Below are positions 2,438-63,479 of a DNA stretch of 64,000 nt, one piece after another. Every line of letters starts with the position of its first letter. Positions within the stretch are counted from its first letter, which is position 1. Both the position numbers and the translations under genes were made by a program. The notes under the pieces are model-generated. The model had not been told where the DNA came from. It saw only the letters and a program-made list of their open reading frames with translations, and searched no databases. The DNA comes from Mesorhizobium sp. SARCC-RB16n (lineage in GTDB: Bacteria; Pseudomonadota; Alphaproteobacteria; Rhizobiales; Rhizobiaceae): NCBI RefSeq assembly GCF_008520305.1, contig NZ_ML703254.1, positions 1-64,000 on the forward strand, written 5' to 3'.

Positions 2438-3334
2438 TTACAGCCAGCTGCGGAGCTTGATGATCGCATCGGCAAATTGCTCAGGCTCTTGCTGCGGCAC
2501 GTTATGTCCTGCGGCCACGATGCGGTGCTCATGCATTCCGGCGAACAGTCCCGCATGGTCCGCGGTCCCGCCGGGTTTGAGCGGGTCGGCAGAACCGTCG
2601 ATCGTCACCGCCGCTACAGTTATCGGGGGCTTCTGCGCCAGACGGGCTTCGAGAGTCTGCAGCGCCGAGTCGCCTTTCTCCAGGCCAAAGATCCACCGGT
2701 AGGCATGGATCACGACGTCAACGAAGTCGGGATTGTCGAAGGACACCGCCGATCGGTCGAATGTCGCCTCAGCGAAATGCCAGCCAGGTGACCATTCGTA
2801 CCAAAGCAGCCTGCACAATTCGCGCCGATGCGCGGTCAGGCACTTGCGCCCGCGTTCGCTCTGAAAGAGATGTTGATACCAGAAGACGCGCTCAAGCGAT
2901 GCGGAGACCGGATTGCGTTGTGCGTCCACGTCAATGATGTCGTAGCCCGCATAGCAGACGAGCCCGCCGACGCGTTCCGGCCAAAGCGCCGCCGCTACGC
3001 AGGAGGCGTTGCCGCCCCAATCAAAGCCGGCGAGGATCGGACGGTTCAGTTCGAGCACCTCGGCAAGCTGAATGACGTCGAGACCGCGCGCAGCCTGTTG
3101 CCCATTGCGCATGGTATTGGCGGAAATGAAGCTCGTCGATCCGAATCCTCGCGCGTAGGGGACAATAACCCTCGCGCCGGCACCGGCTAGGATCGGCGCC
3201 ACTTGCTCGAAGGCATGCACGTCATATGGGAAGCCGTGCGACAGGATCACCGGCCAACCATTGGCCGGGCCCTGCTCGAAGTAGGCGATCCGCAGAGTTT
3301 CCGTCTGGGCGATTCTTGCCGGTTGCTCAGTCAT
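2438..3334 (-). CDS. alpha/beta hydrolase (haloalkane dehalogenase / epoxide hydrolase-like)
   Basis: The 298-residue protein has the alpha/beta-hydrolase order of motifs: oxyanion HGFPYD after strand 3, nucleophile elbow GFDWGGNAS with aspartate as nucleophile, and a late AAGHNVP segment with the catalytic histidine. An Asp rather than Ser nucleophile points to the dehalogenase/epoxide-hydrolase branch rather than esterases. The substrate cannot be told. I chose the start at MTEQPARIAQ (3334) because AAAGGA precedes it; the frame is open twelve codons further upstream. IS remnants lie immediately downstream and a second Asp-nucleophile hydrolase lies upstream on the same strand. Confidence 0.75.
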   Translation of the reverse strand: MTEQPARIAQTETLRIAYFEQGPANGWPVILSHGFPYDVHAFEQVAPILAGAGARVIVPYARGFGSTSFISANTMRNGQQAARGLDVIQLAEVLELNRPILAGFDWGGNASCVAAALWPERVGGLVCYAGYDIIDVDAQRNPVSASLERVFWYQHLFQSERGRKCLTAHRRELCRLLWYEWSPGWHFAEATFDRSAVSFDNPDFVDVVIHAYRWIFGLEKGDSALQTLEARLAQKPPITVAAVTIDGSADPLKPGGTADHAGLFAGMHEHRIVAAGHNVPQQEPEQFADAIIKLRSWL

Positions 3335-3532
3335 TGAACTGTCCTTTCGAAGTGCGGGGGCGCCGGTCACCTCAGCGTCGGCCCGAGGTTTGGTGTCTCA
3401 AGGCGGGGTCGATCACAGCAACCGGGGCGCGGCGAGGTTCAACAATTTCAAACCACGAGGAGCTTCGAATTTGCGCCGGACCGGTGCGATTGCATCAGCC
3501 GTTACCTGCGCAGTCGGCGTGCAGTTCCGAAC

Positions 3533-4669
3533 TCAGGACCGCCCTCGCATCACCTTGGCAATGAAGGCTCGAAGATCTGCCAACATCAGCGCAGGTTCTT
3601 CCAGAGCAGCGAAGTGGCCGCCTCTCGGCATATCGGTCCAATGAACGACGTTGTAGGTCTTCTCTACGAACGAGCGAGGCGTGGGCAGAAACACGGGGTC
3701 AGGAAATGCCGCGACACCCATCGGTGCTCGCACATGCGTGCCGGACGGAAGCCATTCCGATCCTTCGAGCCGCTTGCCGTGATAAATCCAAGTTGAGGTA
3801 ACGACCGAGGGCGGTGCGACATAGAGCATTATGTTTGTGAGCAGTTGCTCTTCGGAAAATTTGCTCCAGATGTCCGGGCTGCCGTCGGCAAGCTTGGGCA
3901 GGTCCGCCCATTTACCGAATTTCTCGAGTATCCACCCGGCCGCGCCCACGGGACTGTCGGCCATCGCCACGCCCAGCGTTTGCGGACGTGTCTCCTGCTC
4001 ATGATTGTAGCCGGTTTCCCAATCAAGGATTGCGGCGCGACGGGCCATAAAATCCCTTTCCTCGGCCGATGTCGCCGCGTCCTTGGGAAAGATGCTGACC
4101 ATATTAATGTGGAAGCCGAGCAGCGCGTCAGGTCGCTCGTTGGCGATCCAGCTCGCGATATGCGCGCCCCAGTCACCGCCTTGGACAACATAGCGGGTTC
4201 GCCTGAACAACTGAACCATTAGCTGGTGCATGAGCTCAGCGGCCCGACGCGGGCCAATTACCTCGGTAATCGGGGTCGAGAATGCAAAGCCGGGGAGCGA
4301 CGGGACGATTACATCGTGTCCGTCCGACGAAAGAGGATCCAGCAGTGGCTCGAACTCCAAGTAAGAGCCGGGCCACCCGTGGAGAAGTAGAACGGGCGGC
4401 TTCGAGCCGTCACCGCGCTTATGCAGGTAGTGAATGCGCTCGCCCTGGATTTCGGTCGTAAAGTTCGGCAAGCGGTTCAGGCGGCGCTCGACATCACGCC
4501 AGTCGAAATCGTTCTGCCAGTAGACGACGAGCCGCCTCAGGTCTTCGACGCCTACACCTGCCGACCATCCACCCGCGTCTGGAAGCTGATTCCAATCGTA
4601 GCCCGCAATCTTGGTCGCGATGGCAGCCAGCCTCTCCTCGGGTATGTTGATGGCGTAGGGGGCAACCAT
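3533..4669 (-). CDS. epoxide hydrolase (EHN domain plus alpha/beta hydrolase)
   Basis: The 378-residue product starts MVAPYAINIPEERL. Its first ~110 residues are the EHN cap typical of microsomal/juvenile-hormone-type epoxide hydrolases (DWRDVERRLNRLPNFTTEI). The hydrolase core follows with HGWPGSYLEF (oxyanion hole), QGGDWGAHIASW (Asp nucleophile) and a C-terminal MPRGGHFAALEEP carrying the catalytic histidine. It would open an epoxide to a diol; the substrate is unknown. The frame is open for 142 codons further upstream, but that extension has no family similarity and would cross the LysR gene. The divergent LysR gene at 4830 is the likely regulator. Confidence 0.85.
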   Translation of the reverse strand: MVAPYAINIPEERLAAIATKIAGYDWNQLPDAGGWSAGVGVEDLRRLVVYWQNDFDWRDVERRLNRLPNFTTEIQGERIHYLHKRGDGSKPPVLLLHGWPGSYLEFEPLLDPLSSDGHDVIVPSLPGFAFSTPITEVIGPRRAAELMHQLMVQLFRRTRYVVQGGDWGAHIASWIANERPDALLGFHINMVSIFPKDAATSAEERDFMARRAAILDWETGYNHEQETRPQTLGVAMADSPVGAAGWILEKFGKWADLPKLADGSPDIWSKFSEEQLLTNIMLYVAPPSVVTSTWIYHGKRLEGSEWLPSGTHVRAPMGVAAFPDPVFLPTPRSFVEKTYNVVHWTDMPRGGHFAALEEPALMLADLRAFIAKVMRGRS

Positions 4670-4829
4670 GGCGTTCTCCCGATCGCAGGTGTTCGGTGCC
4701 AAGGCCCGAGGAAATGGCTTTCCATACGGAAGAACTTGCACTGATTGATCCTTCCGCTGCAAAGATGGGGTATAGAATGCGAAAGTGTAGGGCCGGCTTC
4801 CGCAGAAGACCTTTGCATAGAGCGCACAA

Positions 4830-5735
4830 ATGAGCTTTTCCCCGGATTGGGGCAGTGATCTGGAGCTGTTCACACTCGTGGTCGATGCCGGGAGTTTCTC
4901 CGCCGCGGCTCGGCGCCTCAACCTTGTGCCCTCGTCGGTTTCGCGAGCAATCGATCGGATAGAGACTCGGCTTGGGGTTCGGCTGCTACTCAGGACCACA
5001 CGTTCTCTCACTGTCACGCCGGAGGGGGCGACGTATCTATCAGGCGCGCGAAGGATTCTCGCTGACTTCCGCGAAACCGAGGAGTTGGTGTCCAATCAAA
5101 GTTCACCGCGCGGGCGGCTGCGCGTGAGCACCTCTATTCTCTACGGCCGAATGTTCCTGGTGCCGGTTCTCGGCGACTTCATTCGGCGATATCCCGACAT
5201 CTTGCTGGACGTTAGCCTGACCGATACAGTCGTCGACATTGCCGGAGGGCAAGCGGACGTGGGCGTTCGATTCGGTCCGCTTTCCGATGGAGCCCTGACG
5301 ACGCGGAAACTCGGTGAGACCCATAAGGTAATCGTCGCCTCGCCTAATTACCTCTCGCGGCGCGGAACGCCCAAAGTTCCGGAAGATCTGCTTGAGCATG
5401 ATTGTCTGGGATTCAATTTTAGACGCGCTGCACCCACTTGGCCCTTCCGCAAAAACGGCCGCGACTATTCACTGACGATCAAGGGGAGTGTCGAGTCGAA
5501 CAATGGGGAAACGCTCGGTCAACTCGCGTCAGAGGGTGTTGGCATCACCCGGGTTGGGACCGAGACAGTTCAGGATCAAATTCGATCAGGCGCGCTCGTG
5601 CCACTGTTGGAAGAGTTCAATCCCGGTGACGTCGAGGAGATCAATGCGGTGTTTGTCGGCGGATCGCATACCCCGGTTCGCGTCCGTCGTTTCGTAGATT
5701 ATCTGGTAGAAGCCTTGCGGCAGCCACCCATTTAA
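4830..5735 (+). CDS. LysR-family transcriptional regulator
   Basis: The 301-residue protein has an N-terminal winged helix-turn-helix (LELFTLVVDAGSFSAAARRL, then PSSVSRAIDRIETRLGVRLL and TRSLTVTPEG) and a C-terminal LysR substrate-binding domain. It is divergently transcribed from the epoxide hydrolase with about 160 bases between the starts. That is the usual arrangement for a LysR regulator acting on its neighbour, here possibly in response to an epoxide or related ligand. The assignment to the family is firm; the target is inferred from context only. Confidence 0.9.
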   Translation: MSFSPDWGSDLELFTLVVDAGSFSAAARRLNLVPSSVSRAIDRIETRLGVRLLLRTTRSLTVTPEGATYLSGARRILADFRETEELVSNQSSPRGRLRVSTSILYGRMFLVPVLGDFIRRYPDILLDVSLTDTVVDIAGGQADVGVRFGPLSDGALTTRKLGETHKVIVASPNYLSRRGTPKVPEDLLEHDCLGFNFRRAAPTWPFRKNGRDYSLTIKGSVESNNGETLGQLASEGVGITRVGTETVQDQIRSGALVPLLEEFNPGDVEEINAVFVGGSHTPVRVRRFVDYLVEALRQPPI

Positions 5736-5899
5736 TGTCAGCCATACAGGATGGCCTTTGCCGGTGCGTAACCCTGCTTTGCCGATCGTAGGTTCGCGGC
5801 GCGGACCAAGACTTCTTCTCGCGCACGGATGGCTTTGCCGTCCTGACCGCTCGCTTCCTACCCCATTCAGGCAGCCCTGTGATGATCTGAGGCACGGCA

Positions 5900-6183
5900 C
5901 TCCCAGGGCTGACCAATCGGTGGCACTATCGCCGGTCAGGTGGATCACCGGCAAAATGGGACTGACGCTTCGCATGTGACGAGCGACTTCCCAGCCGGTA
6001 GGGCCATCTCCAAGTCTTGTGTCTGTTACGACGGCCGTAATCCGTTGGGGGCCACGATCAAGGGCCGCAAGGGCATCAACCCCTCTGGAGACACCAATCA
6101 CCTCAAAACCGACTTCGACAAGCGAGGTTTCGACGTCAAGGAGGACGACGCTTGCGTCTTCTATCTTCTACAACCAGGATGAG
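5900..6183 (-). pseudogene. CheY-like response regulator remnant
   Basis: Reading the minus strand gives LILVVED, a break, then GFEVIGVSRGVDALAALD and VVTDTRLGDGPTGWEVARHM with ILPVIHLTGDSA. That is a receiver domain with the phospho-acceptor Asp in VVTDTRL. The break coincides with a 7-base tandem duplication (AGAAGAT/AGAAGAC) after the VVED codons that shifts the frame. The C-terminal part after SALGVP is also unrecognisable. It is a decayed single-domain response regulator. Confidence 0.6.
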
Positions 6184-6861
6184 CCCTGCCACTTGACCTC
6201 GGTCCAACTCTATCGACGGATTGGCCCAGCTGACGGGCGGAGCTTAAATTGGTTCCTCATCACGCGACGCGGGGCAGGACGCCCGCCACAGCGGCCTAGA
6301 TCGTCGCCTTGTTGTGGGAGGCGATAGTCTCTTGTTATTTCAACGACTTACGGAAGTTCCATAAGATAGATTACGCAACATCGTCTTGTAGGAGCTAAGT
6401 TAAAATGTCCGGGTTTGGCAAAGTAGGAATGTCGCTCCTGCTTGTGCGCTGCCACTTAACATTGGTCGCCTCACCGAGGGTTGGTTAGAGGGCTCTCTCG
6501 CCACCTTGCGAGCAGCGGGAGAGCCCTATCGGCGCAGGAAGGGACATAGCTGCGCAGATATCGTTGGCAGCTCTCGTCAAACAAGAACCAAGCCGACAGG
6601 AAGTAGTCGCCACCGCGTATTCCGGTGCGAGCAACCAGCGTGCTGGCCAATGTTTTCCGTGAGCTTCCTCCTAAATTGCGACGATTAACGGCGCCAGTCG
6701 TCGGACGGTTCCTCGCCTTCACCAAAGCAAGACCTTTGCAGGTTGGTGCCTGGGTCCGAAGTCCGAGTTTGGTAAGGCCTAAGTCCCAGCCTCGGAACAT
6801 CTCGGATTTGGACACGTTGGGTCCCGGGCAATTGTGCCCGAGCTCTCAGGAAGGTTTTCAT
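6184..6861. other. intergenic, no gene recognised
   Basis: Six-frame reading gives only short frames (the longest a 114-codon minus-strand one at 6471-6815) without motif, start signal or neighbour logic. The last 20 bases hold the ribosome binding site of the following gene. Confidence 0.5.
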
Positions 6862-7155
6862 ATGAGAATGCATTTAATCGCTGCATCGTTTCTGCTCCTT
6901 GCCTCTGTCGGCGCGGCGGCGGCCCAGGACGTCGTTGTCGCCCCTGAGCAGGACACGGTCATTCAGGAGTACGTGCACAAGCAGCCCCTCGCTTCTGTGG
7001 AAGTTCCCGGCGTTGAACTCAACGTCGGCACTGCCCTTCCCGACACCGTCGAGCTTCGCGAAGTTCCCAACGTCAAGTACCGCTACGTCGTGGTCCACAA
7101 CCGGACAGTTCTCGTGGACCCGGGCACCCGGAAAATCATAAAGGTCTATAACTGA
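6862..7155 (+). CDS. DUF1236-type secreted protein
   Basis: The 97-residue product begins with a signal peptide (MRMHLIAASFLLLASVGAAA, cleavage predicted near AAAQ). A conserved-looking domain follows with VELREVPNVKYRYVVVHNRT and VDPGTRKIIKVY, the DUF1236 pattern found in rhizobial periplasmic proteins. The start at 6862 has AGGAAGG just upstream; the frame is open further upstream but that part is not protein-like. Function is unknown and it appears monocistronic. A stem-loop follows the stop. Confidence 0.75.
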   Translation: MRMHLIAASFLLLASVGAAAAQDVVVAPEQDTVIQEYVHKQPLASVEVPGVELNVGTALPDTVELREVPNVKYRYVVVHNRTVLVDPGTRKIIKVYN

Positions 7156-7168
7156 GCAAAGTGTTGTA

Positions 7169-7195
7169 GGCCCGTCGCTGCCAAGGCGACGGGCC
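7169..7195 (+). terminator. stem-loop after the DUF1236 gene
   Basis: A perfect 10-base stem (GGCCCGTCGC / GCGACGGGCC) with a 7-base loop begins 14 bases after the stop codon. There is no T-run after it, so intrinsic termination would be weak. Confidence 0.5.
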
Positions 7196-7535
7196 GCACC
7201 CAATTCAGGCGGTGAAGGCATTGGCAAAGACATTCTCACGGGCGATCGCCGATATGAGCTTCCTAGGGCGCGGGGCACCAGTGTTGTAATCCCCCCGGCA
7301 CGTCAGCGCTCGGCCTGCCGACCATCAACGTTGGGCCCTAGGGCCGCGACTACCATTGCTCGAGCGGACGCACGCGCCTTACACGTTCAAAACTTTACCG
7401 AACCTTATCGACCGGATCAGCCGCAATATCAGCTAGCATAGGTTCTTTGGGCAGAAGTCTCTTTCGAGACACTGCAGGAACCAAAGGCGCTGCCGCAGAT
7501 TGCGCTGAGACTGCAAACGCTTGATGAGGATGCCC
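7196..7535. other. intergenic, nothing recognised
   Basis: No frame here has a family match. The final bases contain GAGG seven bases before the ATG of the next gene. Confidence 0.4.
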
Positions 7536-7916
7536 ATGGAGAAAACGTTCAATCACCTGGCCAGCGCGGTTGCTCATGCCACCGGCCGCCCATGGGCGTT
7601 CGCGCTGTGCCTCGCCTCGGTCATCGTCTGGGCGGGCACTGGCCCGATCTACCATTATTCCGAGACCTGGCAGTTGGTGATCAACACCGGTACCACGATT
7701 GTCACCTTCCTGATGGTGTTCCTCATCCAGAACACGCAAAACCGGGACGGCGCGGCCATTCAGGCCAAGCTTGATGAACTGATCCGTTCGGGTGCCGGAA
7801 AAAATGACTTTATCGGAATTGAGCATCTTACGGAAGCCGAGGTCGAGGAGTTTAGATCATTGTGCGCGCGTGCCAAGGACCTCAAGACCCGGGATACCAG
7901 CGCAGCAAACGCCTAA
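7536..7916 (+). CDS. low-affinity iron permease family membrane protein
   Basis: The 126-residue protein starts MEKTFNHLASAVAHATGRP and has two predicted membrane segments (WAFALCLASVIVWAGTG and a LVINTGTTIVTFLMVFLIQ segment). They are followed by NTQNRDGAAIQAKLDELI and an acidic C-terminal tail. This is the pattern of the bacterial low-affinity iron permease family (PF04120), also annotated simply as a small membrane protein; transport activity in bacteria is not established. The ATG at 7536 is preceded by GAGG; two earlier in-frame ATGs (7521, 7530) are less well placed. Confidence 0.75.
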   Translation: MEKTFNHLASAVAHATGRPWAFALCLASVIVWAGTGPIYHYSETWQLVINTGTTIVTFLMVFLIQNTQNRDGAAIQAKLDELIRSGAGKNDFIGIEHLTEAEVEEFRSLCARAKDLKTRDTSAANA

Positions 7917-8955
7917 TTCGCCTCCGTTATCCGATTTCAATGATCCGCCGTTTTCGGGCTTCGCGCGCTTTGGGACAGGCCTGGGCGCCTTCCGTGCGGC
8001 ACCGGGCTTCGCTTGCCGTACGAGTACATCCGAAGTCCAGCGGGCTCGGGCGGAAGCCTGCGGCTAAGCCGGCGAAGAGCACAGGGAAAAAGCGCTCGAC
8101 CCGGTGACTGCGCATCCCTGCCCATTTTGCACGAGCTCCGATGTAAGGCCATACGTGACAGTCGAGGCGCGAGTAGTGGTGAATGCGACCACGGTGGTGC
8201 ATCCGGCCCTGTCTGCATCGACCAATTAAACGCGGTTAGAAGCTGGAATCGGCGTCCCGCCACACCTGATCAGGATAGGGATTGACGGCTGTGTCCAGCA
8301 AGCATTGTCAATCCGCCGAAACGTGATGTTGAGACTCGGGTGTGGAAGTGTATCATTTTAACACAATCGTCAATTTGTAGACTCCCGCGATGCATCGGCA
8401 GCTAGTGTCTCCGTCCAGGCTAAGGGCGGGAAAGCAGCGAACCCGGGAGGAAAACGATGTCTGTCCAAAAAGGCGACTTTCGAACGAACAGAGCCGACTA
8501 TTTGATCGCCGCGACGAAAGGCCGATCGGCCGTTGAACTCGGCCGCGATGAGATACTGGAAAGGAAATCTTTGTGGCTACGAGATCCGCGTACCGCCAGA
8601 TTCGGCGCGAATCCGCGTGATAGCGCTCCGGGGTCGAGAGCCAGACCCCGCGGCAATTAGCGGCTCTGGTACTTCCGACACACCCTGCCTTTGTGCAACC
8701 CAGCTTCGTCCTTATGGATGCCTGCCGATCATTCCGGCAGGGGCGTATATTTGTCGTCAGCCGGTGCCGTGTTTCGTTTCCGAGCCCCCGCCGGTTAGGC
8801 CAAGTGGCACGCCACCAAACCCGACGGCTACCGGGGCGCTCCCGTATCGGAACCAACTAGACCGCTTGCACGACACCCTAGCGCAATGAGGCGTGCACCA
8901 TAGACCCTGCCGTGCATGCCATAGTACATGCTCCATCACCGAGGCCGGAAGGGGA
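7917..8955. other. long intergenic stretch with little recognisable content
   Basis: About 1 kb between the permease and the end of virD4. Apart from one short frame with a good ribosome binding site at 8457 I see no recognisable gene, RNA or repeat. It may contain decayed sequence. Confidence 0.4.
8457..8660 (+). CDS. hypothetical protein, 67 residues
   Basis: The frame has a strong ribosome binding site (GGAGGAAAACG before ATG). It encodes MSVQKGDFRTNRADYLIAAT and a charged middle part, ending in a low-complexity Arg/Pro tail that suggests a frameshifted C terminus. I recognise no family. It stands alone between convergent genes. Confidence 0.3.
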   Translation: MSVQKGDFRTNRADYLIAATKGRSAVELGRDEILERKSLWLRDPRTARFGANPRDSAPGSRARPRGN

Positions 8956-10926
8956 TTATCCCGTCTCCAGCCCGAGTTCCGGTCCGGCATCTGGTACCGT
9001 CTCGTCGAATATTGCCGACCAGTCCCTCCCTCCTCTCCGGAATTTGAGAGCTCTCGACCTGATAGCAAGAGTCTTCAATCTCCGCGCAGCCGAATCGAAG
9101 CGAGCTTCGATTGCCTGCACTGTCTGCACTCCGCGCACCAATCCCTCAGAGTTGCCATTTCCTTTTGATGCGTCAGCAGGCACGGTCGAATATCGTTGGC
9201 TGGATGAAACTTCGCCGGTCTCACCCGAATTCTCATATGTCTCGGTCGTCGCAGGAACGGCCCTTCGCGGAAGGAATTCCATTGCCGGCACGGAAGGAAC
9301 GTGGCTGCGTGAGAAAGCCTCTATCTCGCGGAAAGGCTTCGTCGCGAAGAAGCGCAGCTTGTCAGCAAGGATCGGGTTCTGTCCCTCGACAAGCACGAGC
9401 ATCTTATCGGAGGGGAGCTGACGGACTTCCTGCGGCATTAGCAAGTCCCGCTCTCTTAGCTGCTCCACCTTGGTGCGGCGATGAAGACCCATCAACTCGA
9501 TCGTTCGCGACTCGGTCTTGTAGCGAACTGTGCGCCGACCAAGGCTTTTTGAGACGGCCTCGGCAGTCGCTTGATCGTTCGCACCAAGGACAAGCTGATA
9601 GCCGCAGTTTCCCATCAGGGAATGCCGCGCGGTCTCGCCGTAGATCTCGTCCAGGTTTTTCAGATCCTGGACGATGAAGGCCATCTTGATGTTGTAGCCG
9701 GCAACATAGGGCAGCTTGCTGGTGATCTCGCTGAGCTTCTTCAGTTGGCGGAACTCATCGAGGAGGAAATAGACCTGCAGCGGTCGCCGATCCTGCTCGA
9801 GCAGCAGTGTGTCGAGCGTCTGCTGGACGAAGAGCGCAAGCAAGGGCTTCAGCAATGTGACGTCGGTGATGTTCGGCGCCAGATAGATCGAGATAGGCCT
9901 GTACTTCAGGGCACGCAAATCCATATCTGTCACTGACGTCGCCGCGATCACGCGCTCGTTGCGGAAGGGCCGCAGGGCCTTCTGGATATCAAGCAAAGCG
10001 GACGCTGCGGTTCGCTCGGAAAGCGCAACATAGGCGTTGAAGCTCTCGACGGTGAAGCGAGAGAGGTTCGGCTCCTTTTCCTTGATGAGGGCCATGAGAG
10101 CCTGCAGGTTCGTTCCGCTGTTGAAGAAAGCCGTTACCTCGCCAAGATTGCGCCGGCCGCTGTAGAAGACGCTTTCGTTGATGTAGCTGATTGCGCCGGC
10201 CATTACCTGCTGGGCGGTCGCCTGCCAGATCGAATTTTCGGAGTCGACGCTTTCGGGAATCAGAATGTTGGCGATGTTTTGGATATCGGTCGTGCGGTCA
10301 CCGCGGTCGGGGCGGATGAAATCGAGCGGATTGTAGCGGTGCGTGCGATCCGAACCAGGCGCGAAGAGGAAGACCTGGTTGCCTTTCGATTTTCGGTAGC
10401 CGGCCGTCGACCGGAAAATCTCCCCCTTGAGGTCGGTGACGATCATTGATCCTTCATGGGTGAGCGCGTTCGGAATGACGTAGCAAGCACCCTTCCCTGA
10501 GCGGGTCGGTCCGATGACCAGGTGATGCCGCTCGTCATCGACGCGCAGGATCTGGCGGCTGAAACGCCCGAGAATGTGCCCTCTGCGGCGAAACCATTTG
10601 CCGCGGCAAAGCGATGCTAAGTTCTGAAAATGCGCATCGCCAAGGGGGTTGGATACTGGCCGAAGACCGACATAGGCAACAATGAAAGCGATGAAAAGCG
10701 CGGGGACGGCGGCTCCGAGACCGACCCGCTGGAGCACCGGATTGTCGGCATAGAGCGCGAGCTGCTGAACAGGTGCCCACGGGTTCCTGGTGATCGTGGC
10801 CTCGATGACGCGAGCGTCGCCGTAGAGAAGCTTCAACGCCAGGCCATAGCCAAGCAGCCAGATGGCGAATGCGATCGCCAGACAAAACCCGAGATAGACG
10901 AGGCGCAGGGTGCCGGTCATGGTCAT
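8956..10926 (-). CDS. virD4: VirD4/TraG-type coupling protein (T4CP)
   Basis: The 656-residue ATPase would recruit the relaxase-DNA complex and hand it to the VirB channel at the inner membrane. It has two N-terminal membrane helices (about residues 8-35 and 68-88), Walker A GPTRSGKG (139-146), a TDLKGE motif, and Walker B VYFLLDEF (385-392). An NCGYQLVLGANDQATAE segment typical of VirD4 follows. The last ~120 residues are low-complexity and probably the substrate-facing tail. It is the last gene of the secretion operon; its ATG overlaps the virB11 stop by four bases. Confidence 0.95.
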   Translation of the reverse strand: MTMTGTLRLVYLGFCLAIAFAIWLLGYGLALKLLYGDARVIEATITRNPWAPVQQLALYADNPVLQRVGLGAAVPALFIAFIVAYVGLRPVSNPLGDAHFQNLASLCRGKWFRRRGHILGRFSRQILRVDDERHHLVIGPTRSGKGACYVIPNALTHEGSMIVTDLKGEIFRSTAGYRKSKGNQVFLFAPGSDRTHRYNPLDFIRPDRGDRTTDIQNIANILIPESVDSENSIWQATAQQVMAGAISYINESVFYSGRRNLGEVTAFFNSGTNLQALMALIKEKEPNLSRFTVESFNAYVALSERTAASALLDIQKALRPFRNERVIAATSVTDMDLRALKYRPISIYLAPNITDVTLLKPLLALFVQQTLDTLLLEQDRRPLQVYFLLDEFRQLKKLSEITSKLPYVAGYNIKMAFIVQDLKNLDEIYGETARHSLMGNCGYQLVLGANDQATAEAVSKSLGRRTVRYKTESRTIELMGLHRRTKVEQLRERDLLMPQEVRQLPSDKMLVLVEGQNPILADKLRFFATKPFREIEAFSRSHVPSVPAMEFLPRRAVPATTETYENSGETGEVSSSQRYSTVPADASKGNGNSEGLVRGVQTVQAIEARFDSAARRLKTLAIRSRALKFRRGGRDWSAIFDETVPDAGPELGLETG

Positions 10927-24662: not shown

Positions 24663-25229
24663 TCAGCTGTCCCAGCCGATTGCGCGGCCCGACGCCGAAG
24701 CCTCCTGAATGTCGATCTGCGCTGCGGCGAGTTGCATGCCGGCGGTTTCGACAAACGACCCAAGCAGTTGGTAGCGAAAGCGGGCGGCGTCGAAGCGTGA
24801 CAGCCATTCAGGCTCAATGACGCTGGTGAGACTGGTTATGCCAAGGAGCTGGCACGCCCCTGGGACGGAGCCGATCAATTGCCGGAAGAGACTTCCTCCG
24901 CGATAGCCCTCTCTTATGAAGAACCGCGACCATTCGTGGATCTCGCGCCCACGCGGCACCGGTCCGTCGACCAGATGTGAAAAACGATCCTGCAGAAGGT
25001 GGGGGGCGGTCGTCGGCAATAATCTGTATCCGCCGACGACGCCACCGTCGTCGAGCGCGAGCACGTAAATGGTCTGCGGCGTATCATAAGCGTCGATCTC
25101 GCGCCTGTCGGGTCGGGCGATCGCTGACCACCCGCGTTCGCCAACAAATATCTCGTGACGCAACCTGTAGTGCTCTTCAAGGAGATCCTGATGGCGGGGG
25201 TCGGCGCTCCCGGTGATGAGGCGAATCAT
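24663..25229 (-). CDS. acyl-homoserine-lactone synthase (LuxI/TraI family)
   Basis: The 188-residue enzyme makes an AHL signal from S-adenosylmethionine and an acyl-ACP. The conserved residues of the family are visible: LRHEIFVGERGW (Arg, Phe, Trp), the YD after EIDA, GGVVGGYRLLPT (Asp/Arg core) and EWSRFFI. The acyl-chain specificity cannot be read. The start MIRLITGSAD at 25229 fits the family; an upstream in-frame ATG adds eleven unrelated residues. It follows the LuxR gene by 88 bases on the same strand. Confidence 0.93.
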   Translation of the reverse strand: MIRLITGSADPRHQDLLEEHYRLRHEIFVGERGWSAIARPDRREIDAYDTPQTIYVLALDDGGVVGGYRLLPTTAPHLLQDRFSHLVDGPVPRGREIHEWSRFFIREGYRGGSLFRQLIGSVPGACQLLGITSLTSVIEPEWLSRFDAARFRYQLLGSFVETAGMQLAAAQIDIQEASASGRAIGWDS

Positions 25230-25317
25230 GATGGCTGCCACTCCTGTTGGAGCGACATTCACCGTGAGGCACCTGCGCCGCCATGGCCATCCTTAGCCAT
25301 TGACGCACAGGCTCCGT

Positions 25318-26040
25318 TCAGCCGGCTATCTCCATCGCGGTTAAAGCCCTGGCGACGGCCTGTGTGCGGGTGACAGAGCCCGTTTTCCGCATGGCGCCGG
25401 CGATGTGCTTGTTGACAGTGGAGTCGGATATCCCGAGGATCCGGGAAATCTCCCATGCCGTCTTGCCCTCTGACACCCACATCAGAACTTCACGTTCTCG
25501 CTCCGAAAGCATCAAACCTTTAGGCCGGCGCTTATGGTCGACCAGCAACTGGAGCCTGCTTGCGAAGGTAAGAGAAAGAACGTTCAGGGGTCCGATGGCA
25601 TTTGTCTCGGTGATCGGCACTTCTCCTGCGAGCGAAATGCAGCCGGCGAGCGCGTTGCGCACAGGAATGGGTACACATACGCCGTCCCTGAGGCCGGCAT
25701 CGGCTGCTTCCATCATGATGCGGTCGCTGGCGGGGCCTAACGCACTGGCGCGTAGCCTAGCCTCGTTCCAGGTGAAGGGCGTGCTGAGCACATTGGAAGC
25801 AATCGCGACCGGATCGCGCTTGATATAATCGCGCGAGACATAGTGCGACATCCAGTCTTCAGGCCAGAAGCGCTCTAGAACCAGATTTTCGAAACGCTGC
25901 CCGCGGCCCGGCAAGCCCGTGACTATGAAGTGGCTGAACCCGAAATGGTCGATTGCCGTGCGATAAAGGCCGACTAGTGCCTCCATGCTGGTGGCGTTAG
26001 CCAGCTGCAGTGCGTTGTGAAGCACTTGCGCGGTATTCAT
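25318..26040 (-). CDS. LuxR-family quorum-sensing regulator
   Basis: The 240-residue protein has an AHL-binding domain with FWPEDWMSHYVSRDYIKRDP, in which the Trp, Tyr and Asp that contact the signal in TraR/LasR are present. The C-terminal GerE helix-turn-helix reads LSEREREVLMWVSEGKTAWE and ISDSTVNKHIAGAMRKTGS. The start at MNTAQVLHNALQ (26040) has GGGAG upstream; a longer reading adds 43 unrelated residues. It likely controls the adjacent synthase and, by analogy with TraR, the transfer genes, although no obvious tra box was found. Confidence 0.93.
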   Translation of the reverse strand: MNTAQVLHNALQLANATSMEALVGLYRTAIDHFGFSHFIVTGLPGRGQRFENLVLERFWPEDWMSHYVSRDYIKRDPVAIASNVLSTPFTWNEARLRASALGPASDRIMMEAADAGLRDGVCVPIPVRNALAGCISLAGEVPITETNAIGPLNVLSLTFASRLQLLVDHKRRPKGLMLSEREREVLMWVSEGKTAWEISRILGISDSTVNKHIAGAMRKTGSVTRTQAVARALTAMEIAG

Positions 26041-26211
26041 TGCCTCGCTCCCTCGCATGAACGCCACGGAAACTACGGGAGCTTTGTTATGTAAGCCCGC
26101 TGGAATTATTTTTAGCCTATGGAAGCTATGACGCAAGCTGAAGTTGCACAGGCCTCGATGCTGCAACAATAATCGGGCGAGATGCGTCTTTAGTCTTCCT
26201 TGCCGCAGTGG

Positions 26212-57121: not shown

Positions 57122-57218
57122 CAATCAACAATCTGCCAACGAATATTAGGTTCCGCTTGCGCTGCAAGCCGCTGGAATCGTGGGGAACAAAAGACAAGAA
57201 CGCAGGTTCGTCTAGGCT

Positions 57219-57461
57219 ATGCCGCTTTACTTCTTCGATACAATCGAGAATGGCCAGATCACCCGCGACGATCTGGGCGTAGACATGAGCCCGGCCGACA
57301 TGCGCCGGGAGGCGAAGCGCCTGCTGCCTTCACTCGTGATAGAGCATTCTCTGCCGGCCGACCTCAATGACTTTGCGGTATGGGTCCGTGACGACACCGG
57401 GCGTTGCGTCTATGAGGCTAGCCTAACGCTGGTCACAAGGTCGCTGTCTGCGCCAGCGTAA
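57219..57461 (+). CDS. DUF6894-type small protein
   Basis: The 80-residue protein starts MPLYFFDTIENGQITRDDLG and contains ADMRREAKRLLPSLVIEHSL and FAVWVRDDTGRCVYEASLTL. It has the MPxYFFD start and VRDxxGxxVYxAxL end of the DUF6894 family, common in rhizobia. Function is unknown. It is convergent with the first ligase gene, the stops being five bases apart. Confidence 0.85.
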   Translation: MPLYFFDTIENGQITRDDLGVDMSPADMRREAKRLLPSLVIEHSLPADLNDFAVWVRDDTGRCVYEASLTLVTRSLSAPA

Positions 57462-60030: not shown

Positions 60031-60261
60031 CGGAAACTAACGTGCCCCCATGTGAATGGCGCAACCTGGCTAGGAGCCTCATCTTGGAGCTTACCGGGTG
60101 CGAGCGCGTCGACGCTGCCTTGGTGGATTGGGATCATCAGGAGGTAAGGGGGGCCGCCATGGGGTGGCGGGGAAGCGGGCCCCGCCAGGGGGAGCCCGAC
60201 CAGCAGCGGCGAGCTGCCCTCTTTCAAACCTGCCGAACATTCAAGTTCCCACATCGCGCAC

Positions 60262-60364
60262 AAAAAGCCCGCCGGCCGGAGCCAGCGGGCAGCTGACAGA
60301 AGTGGAGGGGGCCGCCGGGACTAAGCGGCCGGCTCACGAACCTTTGTCTGTGACACATGTTCCA
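60262..60364 (-). ncRNA. terminator-ended RNA-like unit A of a tandem array
   Basis: On the minus strand the unit begins TGGAACATGTGTCACAGACA, has a variable hairpin (GGCCGC/GCGGCC, 60310-60330), a conserved CTTCTGTCAGCTG linker, and ends in a 9-base terminator stem (60267-60290) followed by T5. Units B and C have the same plan. No convincing protein is encoded, although an ATG occurs in the conserved 5' part. Confidence 0.55.
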
Positions 60365-60373
60365 GCTGGCAAT

Positions 60374-60406
60374 AAAAAAAACCCGCCACTGAGGGGACGG
60401 TGGCGG
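60374..60406 (-). terminator. intrinsic terminator between array units
   Basis: On the minus strand a CCGCCAC/GTGGCGG stem (60383-60406, 10-base loop) is followed by eight T. It lies directly upstream of unit A. Confidence 0.75.
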
Positions 60407-60515
60407 ATTCTGTTTGAAAGCTGATCTCAGCTCTCTTGCGCCTCTAACTGAGGGGGAGGTGTTATGGGCGCCAGGGAATGAACTAGGGCCAACAGAAAGT
60501 GTTCCAGACGGAAAC

Positions 60516-60646
60516 AAAAAGGGCCGCCGGCGGGAGCCAGCAGGCAGCTGACAGAGTGGAGGGACGCCCGGAGTGAGGCGTCCGGCTCAGAATCTTTGTC
60601 TGTGGATATTGAGGCCCGCGCCCCACCCAACAAAGGGGCGCGGGCC
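60516..60646 (-). ncRNA. terminator-ended RNA-like unit B with upstream 12-base hairpin
   Basis: Minus strand: a perfect 12-base stem GGCCCGCGCCCC/GGGGCGCGGGCC (60613-60646) leads into CCACAGACAAAGATTC. The variable hairpin GGACGCC/GGCGTCC (60562-60583), the linker CTCTGTCAGCTG and the terminator stem (60522-60545) with T5 follow. The variable stem differs in sequence from units A and C but keeps pairing. Confidence 0.55.
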
Positions 60647-60728
60647 GGCCAGCGTCGCGAAAAGACCCAGACGCGCCGCCGCCTTGGCCCGAACTTGCGA
60701 CTGGTCGAGCTGTTCCCGACAGAACACT

Positions 60729-60830
60729 AAAAAAGCCCGCCGGCCGGAGCCAGCGGGCAGCTGACCGAAGGAGAGAGCCGTCCAGGGAAGGCGGCCCGCT
60801 CCCGAACACTTGGCTGTGACACATGTTCCA
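60729..60830 (-). ncRNA. terminator-ended RNA-like unit C
   Basis: Minus strand: TGGAACATGTGTCACAGCCA at the 5' end, the variable hairpin GCCG-CC/GG-CGGC (60777-60795), linker CCTTCGGTCAGCTG and a terminator stem identical to that of unit A (60735-60758) with T6. Confidence 0.55.
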
Positions 60831-60837
60831 GCCGGAT

Positions 60838-60869
60838 AAAAAACCCGCCAGGGCGGGGCCCCCGGCGGG
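60838..60869 (-). terminator. intrinsic terminator upstream of unit C
   Basis: On the minus strand CCCGCC/GGCGGG (outer stem 60844-60869) with a GC-rich inner part is followed by six T. Confidence 0.7.
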
Positions 60870-60972
60870 CAAGGCTTCTGGAGTACAGGCGCCCAGTCAG
60901 CATAGTTCAACGCCGGACGGAGCAGTTGGTTGCCATTGGGAGGCCCGCGAAGCGCAGCTGCGGCTGAAACCC

Positions 60973-61005
60973 AAAAAAGATCCCCACCGGCCGAAGCCGA
61001 TGGGG
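60973..61005 (-). terminator. intrinsic terminator with UUCG tetraloop
   Basis: On the minus strand CCCCATCGGC-TTCG-GCCGGTGGGG (60982-61005) is followed by GATC and six T. The CGGC(UUCG)GCCG core is an extra-stable tetraloop. It ends the transcript of the small gene starting at 61338. Confidence 0.8.
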
Positions 61006-63177: not shown

Positions 63178-63260
63178 GCACGCTACTCCGGCCGCGATTC
63201 AAGGGCTGAGCCACGATTCAGTTCCGGAACATTTTAGCTAATTTGAATGTTCGAAAGGCT

Positions 63261-63479
63261 ATGACAAAGCTTTCAGACCTTGGAACATCAATCCCCGGCA
63301 AGCGGCACGAAGGCGAGCCCGATGATGAGGACGAAAACTTCTATAAGTGCGAGATCTGCGGACAGCGGCTCGACGTGCGCGATCTGCGTCAGGTGATGTC
63401 GCACGAGCAGCCGAGCCATGAACCACTGGACCCGCAAGATGGCGCAACGATCCTTTTATTCCCAAGGCTGCGGAAATAA
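63261..63479 (+). CDS. small zinc-ribbon-like protein, copy 2
   Basis: The 72-residue product reads MTKLSDLGTSIPGKRHEGEP, FYKCEICGQRLDVRDLRQVM and PLDPQDGATILLFPRLRK. It has the CxxC pair, here CEIC. GAAAGG lies shortly before the ATG; a TTG at 63243 would add six residues. It is the counterpart of 59246-59464. Function unknown. Confidence 0.7.
   Translation: MTKLSDLGTSIPGKRHEGEPDDEDENFYKCEICGQRLDVRDLRQVMSHEQPSHEPLDPQDGATILLFPRLRK

Follow-up and report, generated by a model that had tools for sequence, protein, structure and literature searches.

A predicted tandem array of general-stress small RNA genes, probably EcfG-driven, in Mesorhizobium

Introduction

EcfG-driven small RNAs have so far been described mostly as single genes. 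GsrN of Caulobacter is reported to have a SigT/EcfG promoter, a length of about 100 nt, a 5' hairpin with a C-run in its loop, and a terminator. It is described as acting on mRNA targets by pairing with katG, and its gene in Caulobacter crescentus is placed distal to ecfG-nepR-phyR (PMC5869019). In Rhizobium etli, the 88-nt small RNA ReC64 is reported to be EcfG-driven and was proposed as a GsrN relative, and the EcfG1 motif is given as GGAAC-N16-CGTT (PMC3892343).

Loci with several small RNAs have been described as well. CcsR1-4 of Rhodobacter sphaeroides are reported as homologous small RNAs that share a locus and are controlled by alternative stress sigma factors (PMC8307010). AbcR1 and AbcR2 (ar15) of Sinorhizobium are described as tandem sibling small RNAs with anti-Shine-Dalgarno stretches (PMC7143759). 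The ar14 family is defined, as the sources have it, by CCUCCUCCC in all three loops (PMC10746234, PMC7143759).

In this study, we analyzed a stretch of Mesorhizobium DNA of 64,000 nucleotides (hereafter the window, meaning the whole stretch) and compared it with related genomes. On the evidence of sequence comparison and predicted folds, the minus strand at 60145-60830 is quite likely to be a tandem array of general-stress small RNA genes, which would be driven by EcfG and would probably act in trans, on an island of stress and DNA-repair genes.

Results

Layout of the array

Six predicted small RNA genes of four types appear to lie head to tail on the minus strand at 60145-60830, and a possible leading gene stands upstream of them. 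From 5' to 3' on the minus strand, the order is the possible leading gene, I-C, III, I-B, II, I-A and IV. The elements are as follows.

60909-60933, minus strand: candidate weak EcfG-like promoter GCAAC-N17-GTT, with one mismatch, of the possible leading gene (low confidence; fold z -1.87)
60838-60870, minus strand: intrinsic terminator of the possible leading gene, from the terminator scan; its T-run stops 8 nt ahead of the next -35 box
60804-60829, minus strand: EcfG-type promoter GGAAC-N17-GTTC of unit C, from the motif search
60729-60803, minus strand: predicted type I small RNA copy C, with outer stem, inner hairpin, linker and terminator (87.7 bits; model-building sequence)
60691-60716, minus strand: EcfG-type promoter GGAAC-N17-GTTC of type III, from the motif search
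60610-60690, minus strand: predicted type III small RNA with a perfect 12-bp hairpin at 60613-60646, without a T-run (fold z -2.4; homologues in G001 and G097)
60516-60589, minus strand: predicted type I small RNA copy B, its own promoter degenerate (71.7 bits; model-building sequence; no promoter match)
60480-60505, minus strand: EcfG-type promoter GGAAC-N17-GTTC of type II, from the motif search
60376-60479, minus strand: predicted type II small RNA, with a hairpin bearing the C-rich loop ACCTCCCCCTCA, a second hairpin, and a terminator with the loop CGTCCCCTCA (fold z -6.1)
60338-60363, minus strand: EcfG-type promoter GGAAC-N17-GTTC of unit A, from the motif search
60262-60337, minus strand: predicted type I small RNA copy A (84.1 bits; model-building sequence)
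60227-60249, minus strand: EcfG-type promoter GGAAC-N15-GTT of type IV, from the motif search
60145-60225, minus strand: predicted type IV RNA of three hairpins, a degenerate copy without a T-run (C-rich loops in several relatives)

The promoter motif is present for five of the six RNAs (I-A, I-C, II, III and IV) and missing from I-B. Since type III lacks a T-run, its transcript probably runs on into copy B, and copy B is probably the 3' part of a transcript that starts behind 60716. The T-runs in the array stop 8-12 nt ahead of the following -35 box on the minus strand, and no complete reading frame lies inside any of the six predicted RNAs. Between 59000 and 62500, both strands together hold 13 terminator-like sites, where shuffled sequences have 4.0 (sd 2.1); some of the 13 overlap and represent a single stem. 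A repeat search found a 46-nt repeat (D1), the copies of which are 80% and 93% identical, with a fourth copy of 61% at 60977, and a 74-nt repeat (D2) of 76% identity.

Much of what the initial annotation had described here was recovered. The three related minus-strand units that it placed at 60262-60364, 60516-60605 and 60729-60830 came out of the repeat search and the folds, the terminators at the unit ends and at 60374, 60838 and 60973 came out of the terminator scan, and the perfect 12-base hairpin at 60613-60646 is present. The terminators and this hairpin had been regarded as separators between the units. They do stand there, but the terminator at 60374 belongs to type II and the hairpin to type III. 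The type IV RNA at 60145-60225 was absent from that annotation, as were the GGAAC and GTT boxes on either side of the 5' box that it described. Its proposal of a family of small RNAs is supported by the promoter motif, the folds, the terminators and the homologues described below, but there are four types rather than one family of three.

The EcfG-type promoter motif

The pattern GGAAC-N15-18-GTT, which resembles the motif published for the general stress sigma factor EcfG (GGAAC-N16-CGTT for EcfG1 of R. etli), has five exact minus-strand sites within 690 nt of the array, with observed spacers of N15-17. The Markov mean is 0.039 sites, and none of 5000 random sequences reached even 4 sites. 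The remaining 127 kb, counted over both strands, holds 13 sites of this pattern. The E. coli-type sigma-70 consensus has no minus-strand site between 59000 and 62500. The box GTGTCACAG in units A and C sits between GGAAC and GTTC, within the 17 nt ahead of GTT. Two other RNAs of the array (at 60505 and 60716) likewise have GGAAC and GTTC upstream, and a fifth pair of boxes, with N15, is found at 60249. The conserved 5' box noted in the initial annotation is thus real, but it is mostly the spacer of a promoter and not a box of the RNA.

In G001, the nearest genome compared (28% of sampled words in common), the NepR gene is preceded by GGAAC-N17-GTT. Ten EcfG-type sites were found in the 14 kb around this gene (L100, G001:C1:1455001-1469000, at 3329-10237), and nine of them have CGTT. 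The base ahead of GTT in the five array sites is A, G or T, and never C. Among the relatives of type II described below, C stands ahead of GTT in 5 of 23, and CGTT is present in one type II subgroup (L104-L106 and L108).

The whole G001 genome contains 302 sites of GGAAC-N15-18-GTTC, compared with 333 for the reversed pattern, which is the background level. The motif alone is therefore no proof of a promoter, and only its local clustering and its tie to the RNAs count. Moreover, duplicated copies such as the sisters A and C inherit their promoters by descent, and the five sites are therefore not fully independent. The putative EcfG-type promoter is the feature common to all RNA types, which are otherwise unrelated.

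Folds and covariation

The predicted folds were compared with those of shuffled sequences. Units A, B and C of type I gave z values of -3.4, -2.3 and -4.5, and four type II RNAs gave -6.1, -6.1, -6.3 and -4.8. The window stretch 60160-60230, which overlaps type IV, folded no better than its shuffles (z -0.15).

Covariation is modest for type II and weak for types I and IV. In an alignment of 11 type II sequences, 98.6% of the cells pair, against 41-47% in slid structures. Two-sided changes were found in 9 cells on 4 of 26 pairs. None of 500 shuffles reached 9 cells; 13 reached 4 pairs and 219 the observed further pair types. A slide of +2 likewise yields 9 cells, and 5 of the 9 observed cells come from one terminator pair. 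The counts of pairs and of further pair types thus stand out less than that of cells, and the paired fraction is the stronger evidence. A second type II subgroup of 12 sequences showed no two-sided change.

For the nine copies of type I, two-sided changes were found in 3 of 20 pairs, a count equaled by 4 of 500 shuffles. The further pair types in these copies were not unusual (135 of 500 shuffles), and the terminator stem showed no two-sided change. The compensatory changes reported in the initial annotation are real in this sense, but few. In ten type IV sequences, 2 of 22 pairs changed on both sides, and 50 of 500 shuffles were as high.

Type II homologues and their promoters

Three type II RNAs, with the promoters left out, were used to build a covariance model (R2). 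At E<=0.01, it gave matches in 36 of the 146 Mesorhizobium genomes, weak ones included. Scores of at least 84 bits come from G001, G064 and two copies in G143; 12 more genomes score 39-48 bits and the rest lower, and some of the weak matches lie outside the type II family. GGAAC-N15-18-GTT occurs in the 65 nt around the RNA start in 24 of 33 fetched matches, whereas the background within these loci is 174/27470 (0.63%). Two of the 33 (L101 and L102) were model-building sequences, and without them the count is 22 of 31. As for the nine matches without the exact motif, L107 and L111 have one mismatch in the -35 box, L131-L133 are family-level matches, and L114, L121, L126 and L129 have none.

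A de novo count, with no pattern set beforehand, led to the same motif. Of all 5-mers, GGAAC was the most enriched ahead of 29 Mesorhizobium type II matches (23 of 29 against 1.8); in this count L101 and three family-level loci were dropped and the model-building L102 was kept. The spacer is 17 in 22 of 23 type II motif sites, though its letters vary between subfamilies. As a negative control, the EcfG motif was found at none of ten true ar14 loci of Mesorhizobium.

Hairpins 1 and 2 of type II and the promoter are kept in a dozen or more genomes, and a promoter-bearing relative of type II is present in M. loti DSM 2626. In type II and most of its relatives, a 5' hairpin with an exposed C-rich loop is followed by a terminator; the copy L087 of G143 lacks the C-rich loop. 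A DNA search with type II gave a match in 1 of 61 genomes, and the wider family therefore rests on the covariance model. Among plasmid records, the type II DNA gave no match. At E<=0.01, R2 matched 12 of 199 genomes of the family and 3 of 289 of the class, each count including G001. Besides G001, all of these matches score at most 32.1 bits, and the three examined (L131-L133) have no promoter. The expectation of many homologues with covarying stems, raised in the initial annotation, was thus partly borne out for type II and hardly at all for type I.

Type II matches and NepR were located in 16 genomes: in 8 they share a contig, with 1 Mb or more between them, and in the other 8 they are on different contigs. 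The idea that type II loci are generally packed in tandem was rejected. A terminator lies just upstream in 5 of 30 loci by a strict stem test, and other motif sites within 700 nt on the same strand (13) are not above those on the opposite strand (23).

Type I and its terminator

The type I covariance model (R1), of which the window copies A, B and C were among the building sequences, matched 70 of 146 Mesorhizobium genomes at E<=0.001. For the promoter check we took 51 of 64 R1 matches, as duplicate loci and some weak ones were dropped. The motif was found at 13 of these 51, compared with a background of 3.1% in the wider, 100-nt stretch used here, a weaker outcome than for type II. Twelve matches reach at least 50 bits and eight of them have the motif, although nine of the twelve were model-building sequences. 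In the three outside the model (from G097, G030 and G015), the motif is exact once and has one mismatch twice. Among the 51, most matches below 45 bits have little in common beyond the terminator, and the exact 24-nt linker pattern of type I was found in no stretch of the genome contigs searched. We therefore rejected type I as a genus-wide family: the R1 matches are mostly the common terminator, and scores of at least 50 bits are confined to G001, G097, G030 and G015 (4 of 146 genomes).

The terminator GCCCGCTGGCTCCGGCCGGCGGGC with its T-run (window 60267-60290) recurs across Mesorhizobium and is therefore not by itself a mark of the type I family. It could be a dispersed terminator cassette. 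A further RNA group with GC-rich arms and the common terminator follows an EcfG-type motif at L058:1501-1583, L061:1501-1580 and L057:2024-2104, and by eye it is unlike types I-IV. Near position 1501 of L054, L057, L060, L064, L074 and L075, short hairpins built around CTCGGTCCTGGCGGGTCCGAG form another group; the common terminator follows them, and the exact EcfG motif is missing. The reading of TGTGTCACA as a conserved palindrome (a regulator site or a box of the ECF41 type) was dropped; the other copies read TGTGTCAG, TGTGTGGG and ACGTGGCAC.

Comparison with Rfam and the literature

The whole window and 14 type II relatives were searched against Rfam at the curated cut-offs, and nothing was found; the Rfam hit that, by the initial annotation, would have spoken against it was thus absent. 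In a loose search with type II, ar14 (RF02344) aligned over its full model with 27.4 bits (E 0.0063), below its cut-off of 58.8. It was the sole match with E<0.1, and the rest of the 17 were at chance level. Three of 15 type II relatives scored 31-34 bits against ar14. On L116, the sX13 model scored 39.9 bits, above ar14 on the same locus (31.9) and below its own cut-off of 50. Two families with C-rich loops therefore compete for this locus, and neither reaches its cut-off. The true ar14 genes are separate loci, five in G001, three of them in tandem. This tandem triple lies at G001:C1:3619171-3619630 (88-91 bits), and similar triples were seen in G031, G064, G075 and G143, that is, in 5 of 5 genomes examined.

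Among the titles and abstracts on EcfG and stress and on Mesorhizobium small RNAs, none describes the array; the small RNA set of M. huakuii 7653R could overlap type II (PMC5596092).

Related genomes and surroundings

The array was seen in the window and in G001, and partly in G097. G001 carries most of the array elements at 5.094 Mb, in a somewhat different order, with further parts at 3.334 Mb and, on the plasmid, at 262 and 273 kb; G097 also contains parts. The DNA search with the array over the 146 genomes, in which only three candidates per genome were scored, served for orientation. Plasmid records gave two matches to the array, both from Mesorhizobium.

The G001 array lies within 7 kb of LigD, Ku and a SRAP fragment (20.6 bits, below cut-off), and the copies on the G001 plasmid are near CsbD, ferritin-like and Hsp20 genes. 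The last 10 kb of the window contain a SRAP gene, two genes with ATP-dependent DNA ligase domains, and DUF768 and DUF6894 genes. Two small protein genes start directly behind an exact motif, at 57184-57461 (plus strand, DUF6894) and at 63226-63479 (plus strand). The short product of the latter weakly resembles the desulfoferrodoxin N-terminal domain, with a score below the cut-off. With these two genes behind EcfG-type motifs, the window's end has the appearance of an island of general-stress genes.

The window also encodes conjugation functions: a relaxase and a coupling protein for type IV secretion, at distances of about 10 and 50 kb from the array. None of the window's conjugation genes was found among the array neighbours read in G001. 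As a separate observation, an autoinducer synthase and a LuxR-type regulator form a pair at 24663-26169 on the minus strand of the window, which also carries the coupling protein, a VirC1-like ATPase and the relaxase.

Discussion

Beyond the motif and its enrichment, the folds, the terminators, the lack of complete frames and the homologues in the genus, all of which were computed, we infer transcription, EcfG dependence, action in trans and targets. A typical gene of the array would consist of the EcfG-type promoter GGAAC-N17-GTTC, a non-coding RNA of 74-104 nt, and an intrinsic terminator. The predicted RNAs have one or two hairpins bearing C/U-rich unpaired stretches. Under stress, EcfG would be released from NepR and the genes of the array would be switched on together. 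The RNAs might then act in trans, with the C-rich stretches pairing with G-rich mRNA leaders, by analogy with GsrN on katG. Pairing of the loops with 40 annotated translation starts of the G001 plasmid was no more specific than base content would explain. Starts paired slightly better than control stretches with the type I linker and with loop 1 of type II, but 37 and 43 of 100 shuffled loops, respectively, did equally well. Shuffled loops were as good in 80 of 100 cases for the type II terminator loop, in 97 for the M. loti loop and in 15 for the ar14 loop.

It is worth noting that there are other possible interpretations of the array. The same small RNA array could depend on a different ECF sigma factor, or on an EcfG paralogue whose promoter preference is its own, instead of the main EcfG. 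R. etli is reported to have two EcfG factors that prefer their own promoters (PMC3892343), and this explanation is live because C stands ahead of GTT at nine of ten sites in the nepR region and at none of the five in the array. However, the GGAAC and GTT boxes and their spacing equal those of the G001 nepR promoter, the type II subgroup of L104-L106 and L108 does have CGTT, and the neighbours are of the stress type, so that another sigma factor seems unlikely to us. The RNAs could also be transcribed and serve as decoys or sponges, for an RNA-binding protein such as Hfq or another small RNA, instead of pairing with mRNAs. Such a role would fit the pairing result, in which the C-rich loops had no advantage over shuffled ones at translation starts, and also the presence of several copies of one stem-loop with diverged stems. 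A common bait, however, would not call for unpaired stretches that vary from type to type, as they do here, and the precedents GsrN and ReC64 are described as EcfG-driven, GsrN with mRNA targets (PMC5869019, PMC3892343). We judge a sponge to be unlikely.

The hairpins could instead be mainly strong terminators and leftovers of short genes, an insulating clutter without regulatory RNAs. The wide distribution of the type I terminator among the R1 matches, most of which below 45 bits are mainly terminator, speaks for this, but the short distance from promoter to terminator, without a complete reading frame, and the conservation of the type II promoter with both hairpins make it improbable. The proposal of the initial annotation that folded elements act on the transferred strand belongs to a related explanation, in which REP-like or single-strand DNA elements function in conjugation or recombination. 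Elements of this kind are palindromes without a promoter of their own and are linked to a transposase or relaxase. The relaxase and the coupling protein are in the window, and copies are scattered over the G001 chromosome and plasmid. On the other hand, the units have a one-sided orientation, the promoter motif at five of six, and a T-run in most, and the copies in G001 lie beside Ku and LigD on the chromosome and stress genes on the plasmid, not beside a transposase, a relaxase or other conjugation genes. Nor would a single-strand DNA element be expected to conserve promoter boxes around a diverging spacer. This explanation is very improbable, and the claim about the transferred strand found no support here.

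If the array is one of EcfG-driven small RNA genes, as we prefer to read it, a wider picture may be drawn tentatively. The locus would be a small-RNA island, on which four unrelated riboregulators, all controlled by a single stress sigma factor, are lined up as promoter-RNA-terminator cassettes. Genes for DNA repair and stress would be their neighbours, and copies would be spread over chromosome and plasmid in Mesorhizobium. It would form a mobile, multi-copy RNA arm of the stress response, of which one part is a GsrN-like family known so far from this genus alone and placed away from ecfG. A C-loop family with EcfG-type promoters off the ecfG locus in many Mesorhizobium genomes, together with the array of four types, would illustrate how RNA regulators are acquired and multiplied within a stress regulon. 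Strains with a type II relative and its promoter, such as M. loti DSM 2626, make the EcfG dependence directly testable.

Among the known systems, the ar14 or cuckoo RNAs and NfeR1 are like type II in having three stem-loops, C-rich loops, and a similar motif in hairpin 1 and the terminator. The loop is different, however, ACCTCCCCCTCA or TCCCCC in type II and CCUCCUCCC in ar14, and an EcfG-type motif stands in type II where a sigma-70 promoter is described for NfeR1. AbcR1 and AbcR2 are described as one family with RpoD promoters, whereas the array has four types and no ar15 match at the Rfam cut-offs. CcsR1-4 resemble the array in that several small RNAs lie in one locus under stress sigma control. 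They are, however, reported to be matured by RNase E from one precursor with ccaF1, while the array consists of different types, with a separate promoter motif for each of five of the six RNAs and a separate terminator for most. GsrN has the same layout as type II, with a promoter, a C-rich 5' loop and a terminator, a likeness drawn from the descriptions of GsrN. Tien et al. are reported to have sought GsrN relatives beside the ecfG-phyR locus, whereas type II is distal to NepR in the 16 genomes. GsrN is known as a single gene, and here four RNA types appear to stand in tandem.
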